Source of the DNA: an uncultured bacterium | GTDB taxonomy: Bacteria; Hydrogenedentota; Hydrogenedentia; Hydrogenedentales; CAILVY01 | Reading direction: 5' to 3' | Length of the DNA stretch: 47,691 bases | Assembly: GCA_937951485.1 (NCBI GenBank) | Contig: CALEDJ010000041.1 | Coordinates: forward strand, 1 to 47,691 | In this document: positions 37,476 through 47,691 of the stretch, one piece after another | Layout: the number at the start of each line of letters is the position of its first letter | Position numbering within the stretch: position 1 is the first letter of the stretch | Program-made: the position numbers and the translations under genes | The notes under the pieces: generated by a model | The model's input: only the letters and a program-made list of their open reading frames with translations | The model's database searches: none | Told to the model about the DNA's origin: nothing

Positions 37476-40409
37476 TTACTCCGAAGTGATCGTGTATCTC
37501 TTGCCTTTCTCCACTGGAAACGTAACGACGAATTCGCTGCGGTCGGATATTTCCTGGCGGTTGGTTTCGGTCAGGGGGATGGGGCTGTCGTCGGCGTGGA
37601 CGGTGATGCCCGCGACGTTGGGGATGCGGATGCGGCAGAGGCCGTCGTGCTTGGGGCGGATTTCGGCATGGGTCAGTGCGCCATTTTCCCACGCGATGTC
37701 CACTTCGTAACCGCCGCGTGCGCGGAGGCCCTTGACGCTGCCTTTCGGCCAGGCTTTTGGCAGGGCGGGCAACAGGAATATCTCGCCGGTGTGGCTCTGG
37801 ATCAGCATTTCGGCGATGCCCGCCGCGCCGCCGAAGTTGCCGTCAATCTGGAATGGCGGGTGATCGTCGAAGAGATTCGGCAACGTGGATTTTGCGAGCA
37901 ATGCCTGGAGGTTCTCATAGGCCTTTTCGGCGTCATGGAATCGCGCGAAGAAACTGATGATCCACGCGCGGCTCCAGCCGGTGTGGCCGCCGCCGTGGCT
38001 CAGCCGATACTCCAGCGATTTCCGGGCGGCCTCGAAGAGTTCCGGCGTGGCGTTGCGGGTCAATTGCCGGCCAGGATGCAGCCCGTACAGGTGCGACATA
38101 TGCCGGTGGCCCGGTTCCGGTTCGTCGTAGTCTTCGATCCATTCCTGGAGGCGTCCCGTTTTGGGGCTGATTTGCAGCGGCGGCAAGCGGTCCAGCGCCT
38201 GCCGCAGGTCCTCCCGGAACGCCGCATCCGTGTCCAGCAAGGTTGCGGCCTCGATGCAGTTCGTGAACAGGTCGTGGATGATCATCAGGTCCATGGTCGC
38301 GGCATAGGTGAACATGGACTGCGTGCCGTCGGGCTTGCGGAACGCGTTCTCCGGTGAGTGTGAGGGATTGGTGACGAGGCGTCCCTGCGGGTCTTCGACG
38401 AGGAAATCCAGGAGAAACAGGGCCGCGCCTTTCATCAGCGGATAAGCGCGTTTCTCCAGGAATTCCAGGTCGCCGCTGAACAGGAAATGATCATAGGGGT
38501 GCTGCGCCAGCCACGCCGCGCCCATCGGCCACACGCCCCACACGCCGTCGGCGGGGGTGGTAAAGCCGAAAATGTCGCTGAGATGGTGCACGACCCAGCC
38601 GCGCGCGCCGTAGTGCACGCGGGCGGTGCGCTCTCCGGAAGGCACAAGGCTGTCCATGTAGTCGAAGAGCGGCAGATGACATTCGGCGAGGTTGGCGACT
38701 TCGGCGGGCCAGTAGTTCATTTGCAGGTTGATGTTGGTGTGATAGTCGCTGTTCCAGGGCGCGTTGATGTGTTCGTTCCAGATGCCCTGCAGGTTCGCGG
38801 GCAGGCAACCCGGTCGGGAACTGCCCATCAACAGATAGCGTCCGAATTGGAAATAGAGCGCGGCGAGATGGGGGTCGTCTGCGCCGGTGCGCACCATCGC
38901 GAGGCGTTCATTGGTCGGGAGCGCCGCATGGGCGGTGCGCCCCAAGTCCAGAGAGACCCGGTGAAACGGCGACTGGTGGTCGGCGATGTGATTGGCCTTC
39001 AGGGCGGCATACGGTTTTTTTCGGGCTGCCTCGAGCGTGGCAGCGCACAGCGCCTCGGGATCATCGCCGCGATAATTTGTGGCCGCAGCGACCAGCATCA
39101 CCGCCGCGTCGGCCCCGCGAATGCTGATCGCGCCGTCACGGTTGGCCGTTTCGCCGCCCTGCGGCAAAGCGAGCAAGCGCGCGGCAAAGCGCATCCCGAC
39201 GTTCTCACCGGTTTCATGGTGTTCGCGCTGAATCTGCCCACGCAGGATCAGGCTGTTTTCGCCTTCGCTGAAACATTGCGCATCCTGGGGGCGCGACATG
39301 CGTAAATCGAGATGCAACGCACCCGGCGTGTTCGCCTTGATGTGCAGCACGAGCACATTGTCCGGCGCGGACGCAAAGACCTCGCGCCGGATGGCCGCGC
39401 CGTCGGCGTCATATTCGACCGCGGCGATGCCGGTACCGAGGTCGAGCATCCGGCGATACCCGCGCACCGTTGCGGGTTTCCGAAACGTTATCCAAAGGTC
39501 GCCCAGTGTCTGGTAGGATTTGATGCGCTGCGGATCGCCCATGAGCGCCTCTCCGGCCAGCGCTCGCGCTTCTTCATTCTTGCCTTCAAACAGCAGACGG
39601 CGCACTTCGGGCAGTGCTTCCAGCGCCTTGGGATTTGTCGTGTCGCGGGGGTAGCCGTCCCACACTGATTCCTCGTTCATCTGGATGCGCTCTTCGTGAA
39701 CCGACCCGAAAATCATCGCGCCCAGGCGGCCATTGCCTACCGGCAGCGCCTCGACCCACGCGCCCGCCGGGCGCCGATACCATAGAAGCCAGTCTCCCTC
39801 CGGGGCATTTGCCTCCCCCTCGAAGACCACGCCCTCTGATCCGGGAACCGAATGGAAGGTCGTGTGAAATGTCTCGGCCATTTTGATTGCCTCGTTACTC
39901 TCCGGGGGCGCCGGCCACTGGCTCCAGGCAGGGTCATCGCCGGTCCGGAAGCGCCATACGCCTTCCAGACCAATCAGGCCTTTTGCGGAAGTCAATATCT
40001 GGCCACCTTGCCAGATGCCGCCATCGCCCCGCCGGTCATAAACCCGCACCGCGACCAGATTCCATCCGCCGAAGCGGATGCATTCCTGCGGCAGCGCATA
40101 GCGCCGTTCCGCTTTATACGCCCCTTGGTATGGCGGCGGGAACGATCCGGTCGTGCCCACCTTCACCCCATTGAAAAATGTCTCGTCCACATCGTCTATC
40201 GCGCCGAGATGAAGCGTCAGTGATTCCCCCGTCCAATCCGCGGGAATAAAAACAAAACACTGGTACCAGGCAAAACCGTCGTATTGTTCCAGTCCCGGGA
40301 TGCCGGACTTTTCCCAATGCCCAGGCACGCGCATCGGCATCCAATCGGCCCCGGCACTATGTGCCCATATCCCACATCCTGCCACAAGGACCAGTATGAT
40401 TCGCTTCAT
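37476..40409 (-). CDS. Exported GH95 alpha-L-fucosidase with N-terminal GH2-like sugar-binding domain
   Basis: A 977-residue protein with a signal peptide at residues 1-21. Residues about 24-165 form a jelly-roll typical of the GH2 N-terminal domain ([18 protein letters not shown]), unusual for this family. GH95 follows: [21 protein letters not shown] near residue 210, then [20 protein letters not shown] and [10 protein letters not shown] with N559 and N561, SPENAF with the probable acid E687, and [10 protein letters not shown] with D856. These residues match the Asn-assisted inverting mechanism of characterised GH95 1,2-alpha-L-fucosidases. Some members act on galactose instead. ATG 40409 is preceded by GGAAGGG. 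With the GH29 enzyme it suggests use of fucosylated glycans or algal polysaccharide. Confidence 0.9.
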
Positions 40410-40492: not shown

Positions 40493-40569
40493 TGGTACCG
40501 GGGCAGGGGGTCGAACCCTGGACCTTTGGATCCACAATCCAACGCTCTGACCAACTGAGCTACCCCGGC
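40493..40569 (-). tRNA. tRNA-His (anticodon GTG), CCA encoded, without G-1:C73
   Basis: A full cloverleaf reads on the minus strand: acceptor GCCGGGG pairs with CCCCGGT, T8-A9, D-arm GCTC...GAGC, anticodon stem TTGGA/TCCAA with loop TTGTGGA (anticodon GTG), variable AGGTC, T-arm CAGGG-TTCGACC-CCCTG, then A73 and CCA. Position -1 is C, and the first acceptor pair is G1-U72. Most bacterial tRNA-His have an encoded G at -1 paired to C73; this one has neither. Confidence 0.95.
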
Positions 40570-40724: not shown

Positions 40725-42992
40725 CTATGGTGAAGTTTGTGGCGGATGCCCAGGCGGAAATGCAGGGGCCACAGCATGAAGCCAGGCGATGACGTGCTGT
40801 TGCATGATGTTGTCGAAGTGGTTATAGGCGATGGGCATGTCATGCAGGAAGGTCTCAGATGCGCCGAAGGCGGCATAGGCTGCTGCCACGTGTTCGCCGG
40901 CGGGCCGCATCAGTTCGAGCGGCGCTTCGCGGTCAAGCGTGGGGGAGACCAGCAGCAGAGGCCGGGGCGCGATGCAGCCCAGCACTTCATCCACATCATA
41001 GGGCACACGGCCCTCCTGGCCCACGAAATACCCCAATTGCGGCAGAATCATCTGCACCTGCGCCCAGCGTCGGATGCCGCCGGTGCGCAGCAGGTCAATG
41101 TCGAGTCGGAATGGCGGCGGGGCGCAGACGAGGGCGTAGCCGGCAGGCCGGTCGTCCAACGCGGCAAGATGAATCGCGACCATTGCACCAAGGCCGTAAC
41201 CCACCACATAAATCCGGTCAGGGGCGACATAGGGCAGGTCGGTCATGGTATCGAGCGCGGCGCGGGCATCCCGGACCATTTGCCCCAGCAACGACCAGCG
41301 CGGATAGCGTTGGTAAAATCCCTCCACTTCCTCAATACGGCGGCCAAATCCCGGCAAATCGAAGCAGAACACGGGATAGCCCGCCAAGGCAAGGCTCAGA
41401 TACGGCTGTTCCCCCCGGCGATATCCGGCGGCATAGCCGTGGGGCGTGGACCATGGATGCAGCCACAGAACGGCGGGATGGCGCTGTCCGGATTCCGCCA
41501 GTCCTTTGGGGTAATACACATCGGCGTTGATGTAATCGCCGAACATCAGGTCGTGCTTCTCCAAAGCGGGAGGGAGCATACCGCGTCCCAGCATCACCTC
41601 GATGGGGGCCGGTTCGCGGCCATAGGTGCCGATGGGGGAATAGGCCGCCGGCGGCGCCTGCCCCAACATGGCGTTGACGGCGCGGCGGATTTCGGGCTTC
41701 CGGCTTTCCCATGCTTCCCGGGACGCAGGCATGACATCCCAAGGTCTTGATGGCAAGGCATTTACGTCAAATGCCGACGGAGTTTGCGCGGTCCATGCCT
41801 CCCAGTCGTGGGGATGTATCAGTCGTTCAGGGAAGGGATAATCGCCGCGCCCGAACTGGGCGTCGCACCAGTCCAGGTAACGCTCTATCACCGCAGGCCA
41901 GGTTTCATGGCTGCCGAAGCGCCAAAGAATGCGCAGCCGCTCTTCCGCCTCATGCAACGCATAGACTGGCTTTACGGCCAGATAGGTCTTTTCCATTGCC
42001 CATGTGGATTCCACAGGGTCATTGATAGCGATGCTCAGCAGACAGGCCCGCGGCGCGACCATGGCCACGAGGTCCGGCAGGTCCACTGGCAATTTGTGTT
42101 CGCGCCCCACGAAAAAGCGCCAGCGGGGATGGAACCAATCCGGAAAACGGCGCGTAATGTTTTCGATGCCTTCACCAAAGTGATGCTCGCCAAAATATCT
42201 GGCGGACAGCGATCCGCCCGCCCCGGAACTGCTCGATATGACGACGGCGATGCGTTCGTCCATAGCCGCCGCCATCAGCGACATTTTTCCGTTGCGTGAG
42301 TGGCCGGTGAGGGCAATCTGGTCCATGTCCGCCTGCGGCACCGTGGCCAGATAATCCACGCAGCGTGCGGCGGCCCATGCCCGGCGGCAAAGCAGCGACC
42401 AGTCATATCCCGGATATGCCGCCAGGAAGGAGTCGGTATCATCGTAATCATCACATCCGAAATAAACGCAGGCGAGATAGCCGCGACGCAGGGCGATCAA
42501 CGCCCAGTCCCGGTGGTTGGTCTGGGTCATGAACACGGGGAATGGTCCCTGTCCATCGGGAATAAGCAACTCGACCCGCAAGTGCGCGGCACTGTTCGGA
42601 CCGAAACGCAACAGGACCCGTCGCGACAGCGCACCGGATTCCGGGCGTTCTTCCAGAATCTCCGCTTCCACGCGGTCAGGGGGCGGCGGCACATTGCCCA
42701 GAATCCAGTGATGCAGCAGGGCGAGGGTCTGTTCCCGGCGGCCCCGCCACTCCTCCACGCTTTCTATCCTGTCTTCCGGCGCGTCCGGCGCGCCGCCAAG
42801 CATATCCGGCAATTCCGCGCGGTCGGGCAACGCATCGAAATCCGGTGGAACCTCCCCCGACGTTTCCAGCCACGCCTCCCATTCTTTGCTCGACGGCAGG
42901 ACGGCCTGCAGTTCCACCATCCGTTCCCGTCCTGCCGCTGATATCATGTCTTCTGCCGCTACGAGAGTCAAGACAATCAGCATTGAAGTCAT
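40725..42992 (-). CDS. Exported tandem alpha/beta-hydrolase (CE15/acetyl-xylan-esterase-like), second domain lacking its nucleophile
   Basis: A 755-residue protein with a short signal peptide. Two homologous hydrolase units each begin with a similar lead-in (EEWRGRREQTLALLHHWILG; EAWESRKPEIRRAVNAMLG). Unit 1 (about 80-390) has LTGHSRNGKMSLMAAAMDER, the GxSRxGK elbow of CE15 glucuronoyl esterases with Ser232, and a GSHETWP His region. Unit 2 (about 420-740) has VVGYGLGAM where GxSxG is expected, so the nucleophile is Gly600, while a late His region (YNHFDN) remains. Unit 1 probably cleaves lignin-glucuronoxylan or acetyl esters; unit 2 may be structural or substrate-binding. GGGAGGGG precedes ATG 42992. 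A promoter lies at 43065-43094. Confidence 0.75.
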   Translation of the reverse strand: MTSMLIVLTLVAAEDMISAAGRERMVELQAVLPSSKEWEAWLETSGEVPPDFDALPDRAELPDMLGGAPDAPEDRIESVEEWRGRREQTLALLHHWILGNVPPPPDRVEAEILEERPESGALSRRVLLRFGPNSAAHLRVELLIPDGQGPFPVFMTQTNHRDWALIALRRGYLACVYFGCDDYDDTDSFLAAYPGYDWSLLCRRAWAAARCVDYLATVPQADMDQIALTGHSRNGKMSLMAAAMDERIAVVISSSSGAGGSLSARYFGEHHFGEGIENITRRFPDWFHPRWRFFVGREHKLPVDLPDLVAMVAPRACLLSIAINDPVESTWAMEKTYLAVKPVYALHEAEERLRILWRFGSHETWPAVIERYLDWCDAQFGRGDYPFPERLIHPHDWEAWTAQTPSAFDVNALPSRPWDVMPASREAWESRKPEIRRAVNAMLGQAPPAAYSPIGTYGREPAPIEVMLGRGMLPPALEKHDLMFGDYINADVYYPKGLAESGQRHPAVLWLHPWSTPHGYAAGYRRGEQPYLSLALAGYPVFCFDLPGFGRRIEEVEGFYQRYPRWSLLGQMVRDARAALDTMTDLPYVAPDRIYVVGYGLGAMVAIHLAALDDRPAGYALVCAPPPFRLDIDLLRTGGIRRWAQVQMILPQLGYFVGQEGRVPYDVDEVLGCIAPRPLLLVSPTLDREAPLELMRPAGEHVAAAYAAFGASETFLHDMPIAYNHFDNIMQQHVIAWLHAVAPAFPPGHPPQTSP

Positions 42993-43159: not shown

Positions 43160-43248
43160 AGAAAACGGTCAAGAGAACAGTGTGTGTTTGGGAATAACGA
43201 ATGGCGTCGGTAGGGGCGTTATTCACAAGATGCAAGAAGGAGAACACC

Positions 43249-46200
43249 ATGAAACGATTAGTGTTAATAGTAATTCCGGTAATGATGTGTGCCGTGGGAC
43301 TTTCCGCTTATGCTGACCCCGGAGACGTACCGATGCCGGACCCGATTCTGGAAGCGGCTGTCGAGGCCATCATAGGCGATGACGGTGTACCTGGGGCGGT
43401 GGATGGAAACTGGCTTATCGGCGATGGCAACTCCAGCGCTGGACCGGGACTCAATGACCCGGATGGCCTGGTGGAATTGGGAAGTCTGGACGACTTTATA
43501 GTTGGTGTGACTGATTTGACGGGTTTGGAAGCGGCATTGAATCTGGAAGTAATGGTTTTGGCACTAGGCGATATTGCCAGTCTGGAACCGATTAAGGATT
43601 TGCCAAACCTGTTTGGTCTTGCCGGCGTCAACGTTGGTATTGGAGATGCGGAATTGGCCGAACTTGCAAGCGGCAGTGCTCCTCTGGCAGTCCTGCTATT
43701 ACTCAATGTTAACCTGGACGATTTCCCGAATGACATTACGACAGCGGGTATCAACAGCATCGGCGCGCTGAGTGGTCTGGTGGAGTTAGCGGTTGTCAAT
43801 ACCGGAAATGATCTGGACATCTCAGGACTGAGCGGATTGTCCCTCGGCGACTTGGGGTTGGGAGTCGGTTTAAACCTCTCTTCGAACAATATCGTTGGCG
43901 GCCTGGACGTCATTGAGGAGTTTGTCGGCCTGGCCAATCTGACCTTGGATGATATCGGCATGACCGACAGCGATTTGGGCGGGATTGACTGGTCCGTCTT
44001 CACCGCTCTGACGGAGAGTTTGAGCCTCTCCGGGAATGAACTGACGGATATCAGCCCCCTTGCGAATCTCGGTGCGACCCCTGCGTTATTGGGCCTGTCT
44101 TTCAACGATATCTCCACAGGGCTGAACGCACTGAATGTGTTGTCCGACGTGAATGAATTGTATTTGGGCGGCAATGCGATTGATGACGCTGCATTGGCGG
44201 AAGTCAATTGGGCCAATTTCGTCAATCTGGTCTGGCTGGGACTTGCCCTGAATGAGATCACCGATTTGACGCCGTTGCTTGACCTGGTTGGACAGGCTGC
44301 GCCAGGACTGGAGATATATCTCTTTGGCAACCCGTTGAGCAACGAAGCGTTATGTGTCCAAATCCCCCTGTTGGAGGCGGCGGGATTTGTCGTGAGTCCG
44401 GCAAGCGGACCGTGTTATGACTTGACGATTGCCGTGACGGGCGACGGCACGACCGACCCTGCGCCGGGTACGTATTCTTATCCGGAGGGGGGGGGCGTGT
44501 TGGTCCTGGCCATAGCCGATCCGGGATGGGGCTTCGTGGAATGGCAAGGGGACATCGGCGGCGCCGATCCGAATAATCCATCGCTGTTTGTTACGATGGA
44601 TCAAGACCGCGTGGTCACAGCGGTCTTTGCGGAATTGATCTATTCGGTAACGGTTGCTGCCGGAGCGAATGGCACCACCAATCCTGCGCCGGGCGTCTAT
44701 GGCTTCACAAGCGATCAGTTTTTTGTTGTTGAGGCCATTCCGGATGCAGGCTTTGCATTTGATCGTTGGGAGGACGGGATGGGCAATCCTATTCCGTTCG
44801 CCGAAAGAATCTTTGGCTTCAACGTGTCGCAATACGACACCATTGTGGCGATATTCGTGCCGGCGGACTACACGGTAACGATTAACGCGGTCGGTCCGGG
44901 CACTGTCTACCCTGTGCCGGGAGTCTATGGCATGCTTGCCGGTCGCTCTTTCTATGTTGTCGCATTCCCCGATCCCGGCGCCTATTTCGGCGGTTTCACG
45001 GGGGATATCGTCAGCGGCAACCCGTGGTTGAATTTCGTCGTTGATCAGGACTATGACATTACCGCGAACTTCACCAATACGGGCTACGAACTCACGATCC
45101 AAAAAACAGGTGACGGGTTCCTCATCCCGGCGCCAGGCGTCTATCGTGTGGCCGACGGCCTGAGCCTCACGCTGAAAGCGTTCGCAGCGCCCGGGTGGCA
45201 GTTCAGCGAATGGCAAACCGAGGATTTTGTGTTGGCTGATCCGACGAATCCCGAACAGGAGATCACGATCAGCGGCGCCGACGCCACAATAACGGCCGTG
45301 TTCGAGCCGATCCCCACGGCTACGGTGACCATCACCGTAGGCGGTGGGAACGGCACAACCGACCCTTCAGGTGCGATTGAAGTTCCGGTGGGCAATCCCA
45401 TTTTCATCCAGGCAATACCCGACCCCGGATGGGTGTTTTCCCATTGGGAAGACGGAGATGGCGCCGTTATCGGAACGTTCCCGTTCCTGTCCTTCTTCGT
45501 GACGGAGGACATCACCGTCGTGGCGTTCTTCGTTGAGGCGGATTATGAAGTGGTCATCCTGCCCGCCGACAATGGCACAACGCTGCCGCCGCCGGGCACA
45601 TATTACGTGCTGGAAGGCGCATCGCTCTTTATCGCTTCATTGCCGGACCCCGGATATGCACTGGGGTGGTGGGAAGACGGTGACGGCGGGTTGTTCAGCA
45701 CCACCATTAATCTGTTTTTGGGCAATATAGAACAGAATATCACTGTAAAGCCTGTTTTCGTCGTAGCCGATTACACCTTGACGCTGTCCAGGAGCGGTCC
45801 CGGTTCGGGCAATGTGTTCCCATTCGTTGGCAGCCGGGGCTACCGCGCGGGCGACGAGGTTTACATCTTTGTGACTCCTGACCCCGGCAGTTATTTCGGC
45901 GGATGGCAGGGCGATGCCACCGGATACGCTATGGGGATCGTTGTGGTGATGGATGAAGACAAATCCATTGAGGCTGTATTGGCGGACAGTGGATATAATT
46001 TGACCGTGGCAATAGACGGTTTCGGGTTCGTCAACTATCCTCTGGGGACTACCCCTCTGGCAGAAAACGTGACGTTTGATATCGTCGCCAGGCCGGGGGT
46101 CGGTTGGTTGTTCGGCAGTTGGCAGGGCGATATCGGCGACGAAGACCCGTATGATCCGACCTTGTCAGTTGTGATTGATCAAGACCGGTCGGTTCTGGCC

Positions 46201-46719
46201 GTTTTTGTTCCGGAAGGTGGTGAAGGCGAAGGCGAAGGCGAAGGCGAGGGAGAAGGTGAGGGCGAGGGTGAAGGTGAAGGCGAAGGCGAGGGCGAAGGCG
46301 AAGGTGAAGGTGAAGGCGAGGGCGAAGGCGAAGGTGAGGGTGAAGGCGAGGGTGAAGGCGAGGGCGAGGGTGAAGGCGAAGGCGAAGGCGAAGGTGAGGG
46401 TGAATGCGAACGTGAGTTCCACAGCGCCGATACTAATGAGAATAATCTCATCAGCCTGTCCGAACTGCTGCGGGTGATTCAGTTCTTCAACTCAGGTGGA
46501 TATCACTGCGCCGTTCCGCCAGAGAACACTGAAGACGGATACCTTGCCGGTCCCGGCGAGGACAGGGATTGTTGCCCACACACCAGCGACTACAATCCCC
46601 AGAACTGGGTTATCAGCCTGTCCGAATTGCTGCGGGTGATCCAGTTCTACAATGCTGGTGGCTACTACTATTGTCCGCTGCAGGGCACGGAAGACGGCTA
46701 CTGCGTCGGCCAGCCGTAA
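43249..46719 (+). CDS. Secreted LRR / InlB-repeat surface protein with (Gly-Glu)n linker and dockerin-like tail
   Basis: A 1156-residue exported protein. The signal peptide is residues 1-21 (ending SAYA). Residues about 85-385 are leucine-rich repeats of the bacterial kind (LSLSGNELTDISPLANL, LYLGGNAIDDAALAEV). Residues about 389-988 are eight InlB B-repeat-like beta modules, each starting Y-x-V/L-T and ending x-AVF, with PDPGWGF-like cores. Residues about 989-1052 are about 30 Gly-Glu dipeptides. The last 100 residues hold two copies of ISLSELLRVIQF followed by F/YN-S/A-GGY, a dockerin-like pair each preceded by an Asp/Asn-rich loop, with several Cys. AAGGAG lies 6 nt before ATG 43249. It probably acts in adhesion or binding at the cell surface; the tail may be the attachment device (inference). 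Confidence 0.8.
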   Translation: MKRLVLIVIPVMMCAVGLSAYADPGDVPMPDPILEAAVEAIIGDDGVPGAVDGNWLIGDGNSSAGPGLNDPDGLVELGSLDDFIVGVTDLTGLEAALNLEVMVLALGDIASLEPIKDLPNLFGLAGVNVGIGDAELAELASGSAPLAVLLLLNVNLDDFPNDITTAGINSIGALSGLVELAVVNTGNDLDISGLSGLSLGDLGLGVGLNLSSNNIVGGLDVIEEFVGLANLTLDDIGMTDSDLGGIDWSVFTALTESLSLSGNELTDISPLANLGATPALLGLSFNDISTGLNALNVLSDVNELYLGGNAIDDAALAEVNWANFVNLVWLGLALNEITDLTPLLDLVGQAAPGLEIYLFGNPLSNEALCVQIPLLEAAGFVVSPASGPCYDLTIAVTGDGTTDPAPGTYSYPEGGGVLVLAIADPGWGFVEWQGDIGGADPNNPSLFVTMDQDRVVTAVFAELIYSVTVAAGANGTTNPAPGVYGFTSDQFFVVEAIPDAGFAFDRWEDGMGNPIPFAERIFGFNVSQYDTIVAIFVPADYTVTINAVGPGTVYPVPGVYGMLAGRSFYVVAFPDPGAYFGGFTGDIVSGNPWLNFVVDQDYDITANFTNTGYELTIQKTGDGFLIPAPGVYRVADGLSLTLKAFAAPGWQFSEWQTEDFVLADPTNPEQEITISGADATITAVFEPIPTATVTITVGGGNGTTDPSGAIEVPVGNPIFIQAIPDPGWVFSHWEDGDGAVIGTFPFLSFFVTEDITVVAFFVEADYEVVILPADNGTTLPPPGTYYVLEGASLFIASLPDPGYALGWWEDGDGGLFSTTINLFLGNIEQNITVKPVFVVADYTLTLSRSGPGSGNVFPFVGSRGYRAGDEVYIFVTPDPGSYFGGWQGDATGYAMGIVVVMDEDKSIEAVLADSGYNLTVAIDGFGFVNYPLGTTPLAENVTFDIVARPGVGWLFGSWQGDIGDEDPYDPTLSVVIDQDRSVLAVFVPEGGEGEGEGEGEGEGEGEGEGEGEGEGEGEGEGEGEGEGEGEGEGEGEGEGEGEGEGEGEGEGECEREFHSADTNENNLISLSELLRVIQFFNSGGYHCAVPPENTEDGYLAGPGEDRDCCPHTSDYNPQNWVISLSELLRVIQFYNAGGYYYCPLQGTEDGYCVGQP
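46213..46404 (+). repeat. Degenerate hexamer tandem repeat encoding Gly-Glu
   Basis: About 30 copies of the hexamer GARGGY (GAAGGC, GAGGGT and variants) lie in frame inside the surface protein. Changes by whole hexamers preserve the reading frame and alter only the linker length. Third-position variation shows that the protein sequence, not the DNA, is conserved. Confidence 0.9.
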
Positions 46720-46780: not shown

Positions 46781-47060
46781 GCCTTGTTGGAATGTGTCTT
46801 CTGACGAAACACAATTCGTGTTGCTCATGGTGGTTTTTCGGTTTTGCACCGCTGTCTTTGTTGCACAAACTCATATATGCCACGAAGAATCCTTTCTTTT
46901 CATTCATCCTGAATTAATCTGAAACGAGTCCCCAGTCACACAGTTTTTGGTGAAAGGATTAAATACGGCGCGCCACGGGCGAACAAGGTCCGCACAGGGG
47001 GATTGCGCACGGGGAAGCGATGTTATGAGTAAGCGGTGATTTCCTTGTGTTCTTGGGAAG
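46781..47060. other. Intergenic region before the broken beta-helix gene
   Basis: No convincing gene. A 57-codon minus-strand frame (about 46725-46905) overlaps the terminator and has no family likeness. No RNA or repeat is recognised. Confidence 0.45.
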
Positions 47061-47501
47061 GTGGCTGGTCTGCTTGTCGTTTGTGTCGCCATGTGTGCGG
47101 GTTCCGGAGTGAGGGCGGCGGAGTAGCAGGTTACAGACACAGGCGACGCCGGCCCAGGCACCCTGCGCCGGGCGATCACCCAGGAGAACGCCAATCCGGG
47201 ACCGGACAGCATCACCTTCGACCTCGGCCTGCCGACTGCCAGTGTAATCCACCCGCTTTCCTCACTTCCCGCGTTGAGCGACATAAGCGGCGGTACTGCG
47301 TTCACCACCCGCTTCGGCGTGGTATCAGACGGTACGCTTGCGGAGGAACTTAGCGTCAATGGATTGCATCTTATTTCCAATGATAATGACATTGGCTGTC
47401 TGACCATCCGCAACTTCAGCGGCAACGACATCCGCATAGCCGGAAAAGACAACATCGTCAAGAATTGTCTTATCGGCTGCTGCGTCGGCCCGCCTCCGTA
47501 A
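47061..47501 (+). pseudogene. Broken right-handed beta-helix (parallel beta-helix/adhesin-like) gene
   Basis: From GTG 47061 the frame reads a signal-peptide-like start (AGLLVVCVAMCAGSGVRAAE), then an in-frame TAG (47124-47126). It then continues VTDTGDAGPGTLRRAITQEN and DSITFDL, the hallmark N-terminal repeat of secreted parallel beta-helix proteins. It goes on through HLISNDNDIGCLTIRNFSG and DNIVKNCLIGCCV to a TAA at 47499. Such proteins are normally many hundred residues long; this one stops after about 125. The stop at the signal-peptide border plus the truncation make it a likely pseudogene. Confidence 0.6.
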
Positions 47502-47691
47502 TCCGCGGCTTTGTGTGTTTCCAGTGCTGTCCAAAATATGCTAAGCGTTAAGTAACCGTTCACGGGGTCAAGAATGCGAAAACACCCGGAAAACCGCACT
47601 TTTTCGGCGCACAAGTCGTCGCATTTTGCCGCATTTTCGCGCCGTTCTCCCGCTGCAATTGCGAAAAACCCCATGTTTTTGGGGGGTTCAA

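Follow-up and report, generated by a model that had tools for sequence, protein, structure and literature searches.

A recurrent double loop-helix tail on exported proteins of Candidatus Hydrogenedentota, a probable dockerin-like docking module

The closest described counterpart of the protein tail analyzed here is the type I dockerin (PF00404), which pairs with cohesin (PF00963) both in cellulosomes and in systems unrelated to them. Dockerins are usually about 60 residues long. In the cellulosome, dockerin tags hold the enzymes, and the scaffoldin bears several cohesins per protein. The tail resembles type I dockerins in having two tandem loop-helix units with calcium-type loops and in being a terminal module, placed at either end of many unrelated exported proteins; cohesin proteins are encoded in the same genomes, and dockerins are its best, though weak, structural neighbors. 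It is probably comparable in role to the cellulosomal tags without being a standard dockerin.

Cohesin-dockerin systems have also been proposed outside cellulose degradation. The sections that present the "Planctosome" model of freshwater Planctomycetes describe cohesin and dockerin modules together with peptidases, including M14, and no cellulose link; they include an anchoring cohesin protein, for which anchoring via a lamin-tail domain is proposed, and an adaptor with both modules (PMC6461901). Unlike the tail, the modules in these sections are annotated dockerin domains and belong to another phylum (PMC6461901). A cohesin-dockerin model is outlined for Cloacimonadota (PMC8542988), and dockerin annotations appear for two Hydrogenedentes MAGs (PMC9377139), where the passages concerned give no sequence or separate family, and a standard dockerin is indistinguishable there from the tail. 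Our literature searches of open-access papers found no description of the tail.

The window, that is, the whole stretch of 47,691 nucleotides analyzed, is an entire contig (C41) of a 4.55-Mb genome. The tail-bearing gene lies near its end, with the following features:

37476-40409, minus strand: neighboring gene for a GH95 family glycoside hydrolase
40493-40569, minus strand: tRNA-His
40725-42992, minus strand: neighboring gene, glucuronyl-esterase-like with a further alpha/beta-hydrolase part
43201-46719, plus strand: tail-bearing gene, an ORF of 1172 aa as listed
43249-43314, plus strand: predicted signal peptide MKRLVLIVIPVMMCAVGLSAYA (home-made scan and sequence; cleavage site by eye)
44416-46218, plus strand: Divergent InlB B-repeat region (Flg_new_2, PF18998), eight matched stretches, outer borders approximate
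46219-46404, plus strand: (Gly-Glu)31 linker, by sequence count
46405-46716, plus strand: tail of 104 residues, a double loop-helix-hairpin, docking-like by recurrence and structure model; then the stop
46429-46464, plus strand: loop 1, tail D9 to E20, 12 residues, EF-hand-type, with D9 and E20 invariant
46456-46491, plus strand: helix 1, tail residues 18-29 (LSELLRVIQFFN), from the structure model
46588-46626, plus strand: loop 2, tail D62 to E74, 13 residues, with D62 and E74 invariant
46618-46653, plus strand: helix 2, tail residues 72-83 (LSELLRVIQFYN), from the structure model

Translation probably starts at the second ATG (43249, Met 17, MKRLVLI...), a choice made by eye from the signal peptide. 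The Pfam scan matched PF18998 to the protein with 181 bits over the 8 stretches (best 406-477), preceded by a leucine-rich-repeat-like region that stays below Pfam cut-offs.

Within the tail, a unit made of a loop, the helix SLSELLRVIQF(F/Y)N and a TEDGY hairpin occurs twice. The two helices agree at 12 of 13 positions without gaps, a level reached by none of 1000 tail shuffles (shuffled maximum 7), which bears out the original description of them as near-identical; the motif E[LIVM]LRx[IV]Q occurs twice in 132 of 133 tails. Conservation was assessed in two alignments, one holding 31 of the 32 near-full-length tails of the own genome (the degenerate copy C16:90134 was left out) and the other holding the window tail and 63 of 102 distinct tails chosen by eye for variety (64 sequences). 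D9 and E20 of loop 1 and D62 and E74 of loop 2 are invariant in all 31 and all 64 rows, and conserved Asp positions are therefore present in both loops, as had been supposed. Other positions invariant in the 31 own-genome rows include H6, A8, I16, L22, R23, Q26, C35 and D44 in the first half, and C56, H59, W68, L76, R77, Q80 and Y87 in the second. The earlier likening of the loops to the Asp/Asn-rich loops of dockerin EF-hands holds for loop 1, which has the EF-hand ligand pattern in the own-genome rows (D at 9 in 31/31, N or D at 11 in 31/31, D or N at 13 in 30/31, and I16 and E20, corresponding to EF-hand loop positions 8 and 12, in 31/31). Loop 2 is one residue longer (13 versus 12), and the full pattern of ligands at 1, 3 and 5, Ile at 8 and Glu at 12 is seen in loop 1 only.

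An AlphaFold2 model computed on the 64-sequence alignment is confident (mean pLDDT 95.5, pTM 0.85) and shows two helices and two hairpins. As modeled, the loop-helix repeat occurs twice in tandem as in type I dockerins, with the helices at residues 18-29 and 72-83 each ending a D...E loop. Structural similarity to known proteins was weak: Foldseek against the PDB returned 17 matches at E up to 10, none below 0.001 (best E 2.1), of which 11 were dockerin-bearing chains and one came from a calmodulin complex, and VIA-align of the tail model on 31 chains gave Z <= 3.7, with no row at Z >= 5. A search of solved-structure sequences with the tail profile gave nothing under E 0.17.

Sequence comparison with dockerins gave little more. 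PF00404 matched neither the window protein nor the tail up to E = 1, and a genome-wide PF00404 search reached the tails only in pieces below its cut-off (at most 19.3 bits). When the 64-sequence alignment was compared by hhalign with eight standard dockerins of the phylum (57 columns), the probability was 6.7% over 21 columns, with one loop aligned. These eight dockerins also supplied the local form DxNxDGxVxxxD with both loops of 12 residues, from which the tail departs by having Glu at position 12 of loop 1 and 13 residues in loop 2. The tail is further unlike type I dockerins in its length (~95-104 residues), its conserved Cys, the TEDGYxPG hairpin after each helix and the lack of a useful PF00404 or profile match. 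The tail is thus laid out like a dockerin, but its membership in the dockerin family is unsupported by sequence, and the weak fold matches do not decide it.

The EF-hand superfamily (PF13405, PF13202, PF00036) is matched weakly by loop 1. The window tail alone reaches 19.1 bits with an EF-hand profile, below the cut-off of 25. One whole tail protein (L068) passes PF00036 (30.9 versus a cut-off of 25.4) with its best stretch in the tail and no single stretch passing; other loops of this protein may add to its score. Unlike an EF-hand, the tail is modeled without a helix ahead of loop 1, its second loop is non-standard, and it forms a separate terminal module. No dedicated Pfam or NCBIfam family model matched it, Pfam giving only weak sub-cut-off EF-hand matches, and PHROGs gave no tail match at E <= 0.1.

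The genome-wide profile search located the tail at 37 places in the own genome, and the reading of a tail specific to the window gene was thereby ruled out; the recurrence that had been foreseen is real. Of the 37 places, 26 hold the full tail at the C-terminus and 5 hold it at the N-terminus, behind a signal peptide; the other 6 are 1 degenerate and 5 partial copies. Four of the partial copies are cut by contig ends, and the frame of one N-terminal copy ends at the downstream contig end. For twelve of the 37, a contig end is no more than 800 bases away (on C16, C63, C38, C46, C24, C4, C51, C55, C9, C21, C52 and C43). The repeated linker and tail probably break the assembly, which may leave copy numbers underestimated. 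Two degenerate copies outside good gene context, L041 4135-4413 on the minus strand and L053 (C34:112360-112458, minus strand), are likely remnants.

Across the phylum, the tail was found in 41 of 68 Candidatus Hydrogenedentota genomes (E <= 0.001), with at least 74 copies in each of G001, G002, G039 and G040. Of 432 relatives, the 80 best (75 loci) were considered, and those with titled records are labeled Hydrogenedentota, Hydrogenedentes, Hydrogenedens or "uncultured bacterium". The named loci contain 103 tail ORFs, 102 of which have the tail within 15 residues of the C-terminus; the remaining protein (L090 5395-6981, plus strand) combines a weak cohesin, a Gly-Glu linker, a mid-protein tail, an Ig-like-looking part and a C-terminal membrane helix. 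Tails group by genome on a tree (30 label changes versus at least 64 in 200 shuffles), and those of the own genome are no closer among themselves (mean likeness 0.647) than to the JAKQOG tails (0.66).

The expectation that the tail would end many unrelated secreted proteins was supported, since its carriers are exported proteins of many families. By a home-made signal-peptide rule, an export-like start was assigned to 21 of the 24 own-genome tail ORFs with an intact 5' end versus 46 of 151 tail-less neighbors; two of the three misses look signal-peptide-like by eye, and the third is the degenerate copy. A Pfam scan of 18 tail proteins and the window protein identified bodies of the Trypsin, Peptidase_M14, Peptidase_C25, Lactonase, PhoPQ_related and CHRD families, as well as Kelch/PKD, P-domain, EF-hand array, GLUG, LRR and InlB repeats, and gave no match at E <= 0.001 for L065, L043 and L072. 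The tail is a reusable tag on dozens of unrelated exported proteins of one genome. Matches to PF22807 (TrAA12-like), several of them below the cut-off, were also recorded in proteins with Gly-Glu tracts (L060, L061, L062, L063, L068, L073 and L044) and are probably low-complexity artefacts.

The linker accompanies the tail less strictly. In the window it consists of 31 uninterrupted Gly-Glu pairs encoded by mixed codons (GGC 18, GGT 12, GGA 1; GAA 21, GAG 10), which point to more than exact copying of one DNA hexamer; mixed codons together with the conserved tail ruled out a plain microsatellite. At least 4 Gly-Glu pairs stand within 40 residues before the tail in 16 of the 26 full C-terminal own-genome copies, with a shorter tract in 3 and none in 7, and 4 of the 5 N-terminal tails have a tract behind them. 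Among the named relatives, 55 of 103 tail ORFs have a tract of at least 4 pairs, and some carry other Glu/Gly-rich linkers ahead of the same tail. A scan for the Gly-Glu pattern gave 735 overlapping places versus 0 in the reversed control. Among the tracts listed, one (L268, C7:23458-23487, minus strand) lies in a tail-less 900-residue frame with CxxCH motifs close to its end, which shows that the linker also occurs apart from the tail. Acidic linker and duplicated tail had been proposed as one module; both parts are present in the window protein, but the linker is an optional companion of the tail rather than an obligatory part.

Standard dockerins are widespread in the phylum as well. PF00404 matched in 60 of the 68 genomes (E <= 0.01), in low numbers in most. 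More than 10 standard dockerins were found in seven genomes only, all of one family (f11) and none with the tail, and none of the 11 tail-rich genomes (at least 10 tails each, among the 68) exceeds 10 dockerins. Tail-rich genomes are thus dockerin-poor and vice versa, a complementary pattern that is suggestive rather than statistically strong because the dockerin-rich genomes are close relatives from one family; it may reflect one or two events. We compared protein bodies using 5 of 8 dockerin loci (L193, L195 and L197 were left out) and 20 regions, from genomes G048, G049, G061-G064 and G066, plus G059, which has 5 dockerins only. The body was similar to that of a tail protein (E <= 1e-5) in 13 of 26 dockerin ORFs from f11 loci, seven of them aligning over at least 240 residues and the rest over shorter stretches. 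In the clearest pair, a dockerin protein (L237) and a tail protein (L064) are 40% identical over 525 aa; the dockerin follows 39 residues past the aligned body, behind an acidic linker, and the tail 5 residues past it. A trypsin-like body likewise occurs with a dockerin (L224) and with a tail (L052), at 58% over 283 residues, the latter with more domains between.

Cohesins, the type of receiver raised in the original prediction, gave 2 hits in the own genome (one over the cut-off) and occur in 59 of the 68 phylum genomes (E <= 0.01), including most of the tail-less ones. The own-genome cohesin protein at C29:137106 has a tail at its N-terminus, and that on C27, below the Pfam cut-off and strong with the phylum's own profile, has a C-terminal membrane helix with a basic end. 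Cohesins occur in each of the 11 tail-rich genomes. Ten of these showed helix-ended cohesins, the exception being G027, in which the cohesin frames read were tail-ended or incomplete. Tail and cohesin counts gave a Spearman coefficient of 0.24, uncorrected for kinship, and cohesin count is a weak predictor of tail count.

The ends of cohesin proteins were tallied in 61 ORFs from chosen loci, a sample of the cohesins of the phylum, with 5 incomplete ORFs set aside. Among the 56 complete ORFs, 41 end in a membrane-helix-like stretch (called by a hydropathy threshold) and 10 in the tail, while 2 carry the tail at another position and 3 have neither. The 12 tail-bearing ORFs represent 12 of the 38 complete ones in tail-rich genomes versus 0 of 18 in the others. 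Each of the 61 ORFs contains a single cohesin match, but ORFs with several cohesins, as in the cellulosomal scaffoldin, exist elsewhere in the phylum (for example G048:C185 and G061:C210).

Among the loci listed, several genomes have an operon that encodes dockerin-type proteins together with two to three single-cohesin proteins, and dockerins exceeded the Pfam cut-off in 3 of the 4 operon ORFs tested (G030, G040). The first cohesin gene of the operon is tail-ended in G001, G002 (one of two operons), G027, G030, G039 and G040. The operons of G003 and G004 are similar in gene order, but their first cohesin ends in a membrane helix, as does that of the second operon of G002; in the tail-rich G041, none of the cohesins read was tail-ended. 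Our cohesin alignment took in 27 of 32 loci (L164, L167, L168, L173 and L180 were left out). The deep forks of a cohesin-domain tree did not resolve whether tail-ended and helix-ended cohesins are orthologous, so the swap of helix for tail rests on gene order. The recurring cohesin/dockerin operon was seen at L198, L199, L200, L202, L204, L205, L210 and L213; at L200 (G001), pilin-like and type II secretion-like genes, judged from sequence, adjoin it.

Taken together, these results lead us to favor, with good though not full confidence, the reading of the tail as a lineage-specific, calcium-dependent, dockerin-like docking module of Candidatus Hydrogenedentota that tethers exported proteins. 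Calcium binding, docking and surface location are what we infer here, next to the observed recurrence, positions, conservation and export-like starts, the predicted fold, the distribution complementary to that of standard dockerins and the tail that stands in for a membrane helix in cohesin operons. Exported proteins would carry the tail at either end, often beside a flexible acidic Gly-Glu spacer; the fold of the tail would comprise two calcium-binding loop-helix units plus short hairpins, and the tail would tether its protein noncovalently to an envelope-borne or scaffold receiver. The same place would be filled elsewhere by standard dockerins and, in cohesin proteins, also by C-terminal membrane helices. 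The tail would thus probably hold exported proteins at the cell surface. Several points count against this reading: weak fold matches, the low profile probability, the restriction of dockerin-rich genomes to one family, a helix-for-tail swap known from gene order and with exceptions in G002 and G041, and the L090 protein, in which the tail is accompanied by a C-terminal membrane helix.

For the receiver, we tentatively put forward membrane-anchored single-cohesin proteins as the most concrete candidate. In a cohesin-first version of the mechanism, the small proteins with both cohesin and tail would act as adaptors that link dockerin cargo to an anchored cohesin. Against a cohesin receiver, the cohesin operons bring their own standard dockerins, which could be the true partners, the own genome has 37 tails versus 2 cohesin hits, and cohesins are also present in most tail-less genomes. 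We consider some other receiver no less likely.

The strongest rival accordingly keeps the docking role and changes the partner: an unknown envelope protein or the S-layer would be the receiver, the cohesins of these genomes would serve only those standard dockerins that share their operon, and the tail would be the own anchor of the cohesin-plus-tail proteins. We regard it as a serious possibility, a little short of even. It accounts for the standard dockerins within cohesin operons, for the tail standing where other genomes have a membrane helix, for cohesin counts that follow tail counts poorly and for the distance of the tail from dockerins in sequence and fold. However, no receiver candidate of this kind was found in our analysis, dockerins outnumber other EF-hand proteins among the weak structural neighbors, and cohesins are present in all 11 tail-rich genomes. 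A related reading, to which we give a lower though still appreciable chance, assigns the tail a separate origin: it would be the phylum's own double EF-hand-type tag, of non-dockerin origin and with a non-cohesin receiver, in a phylum-wide system for protein attachment, and the cohesin-plus-tail proteins would be plug adaptors connecting this system with the older cohesin-dockerin one.

It is improbable that the tail is a partner-less structural cap or a calcium-triggered folding aid of the kind provided to secreted proteins by RTX-like repeats. The calcium-loop pattern, export-like context and acidic linker would suit such a role, but the tract of at least 4 Gly-Glu pairs between body and tail in 16 of 26 copies fits a tether better than a cap, the polar helix residues R23, Q26, R77 and Q80 are invariant, and homologous bodies and cohesin proteins bear dockerins or membrane helices instead.

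We consider it quite unlikely that the tail serves for C-terminal sorting, whether by a dedicated exporter or by a sortase-like enzyme. The type IX secretion CTD stands at the C-terminus; a PEP-CTERM/exosortase substrate has a C-terminal membrane helix with a basic end, and a sortase substrate an LPXTG motif followed by a membrane helix. The mostly C-terminal position of the tail agrees with a sorting signal, as do the exosortase present in the own genome and a tail-bearing gingipain-like C25 protease (L045 6855-9986, plus strand), although the latter carries its tail N-terminally in a genome without a SprA match. The five N-terminal own-genome copies, however, make an obligatory C-terminal signal unlikely, and the type IX CTD was rejected on the ground that these copies follow a signal peptide instead. 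SprA (PF14349) was over the cut-off in 0 of 68 genomes, with a single piece below the cut-off in a stop-interrupted frame; the search, of unestablished sensitivity, matched 0 of 14 control genomes as well. An exosortase substrate was likewise rejected: the tail sequence has no hydrophobic segment with a basic end and hence no fitting C-terminal helix, and 7 of the 11 tail-rich genomes lack an exosortase match (PF09721, E <= 0.001). Nor does the tail contain an LPXTG motif with a following membrane helix. Of the two roles originally offered, sorting or docking, the N-terminal copies thus argue for a docking module. Least probable of all is a selfish or recombination-prone cassette of tail and (GE)n copied onto genes without function, which would explain the high copy number and the grouping of tails by genome (though own-genome tails are no more alike than they are to the JAKQOG tails) but is contradicted by protein-level conservation with mixed codons, enrichment on exported proteins, phylum-wide occurrence on diverse bodies and a linker that is often missing.

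Under the favored reading of a docking module, the same tag marks dozens of exported proteins in some genomes of one uncultured phylum, and, since it is shared and without a Pfam or NCBIfam model, it allows many candidate surface proteins to be listed at once. The replacements described above suggest that standard dockerins, membrane anchors and the tail are able to take each other's place. The tail and an anchored cohesin form a clear testable pair, and enzyme display could gain a new protein-coupling pair from the tail.

Two further sequences deserve mention. The plasmid collection contained no match to the window tail, and a virus-classed IMG/VR contig (L278 966-1352, plus strand) encodes a 495-residue protein with an open start that matches CBM5/12 and contains, internally, a divergent double repeat of the tail type, 37% identical to the window tail; neither the phage nor the plasmid collection gave a match to it, and IMG/VR showed no other close relative. 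In the window itself, downstream of the tail-bearing gene, a decayed gene (47025-47502, plus strand) has a signal-peptide-like start, a GDAGPGTLRRAI stretch in its body and two in-frame stops, and its final residues, CCVGPPP, are similar to tail ends.
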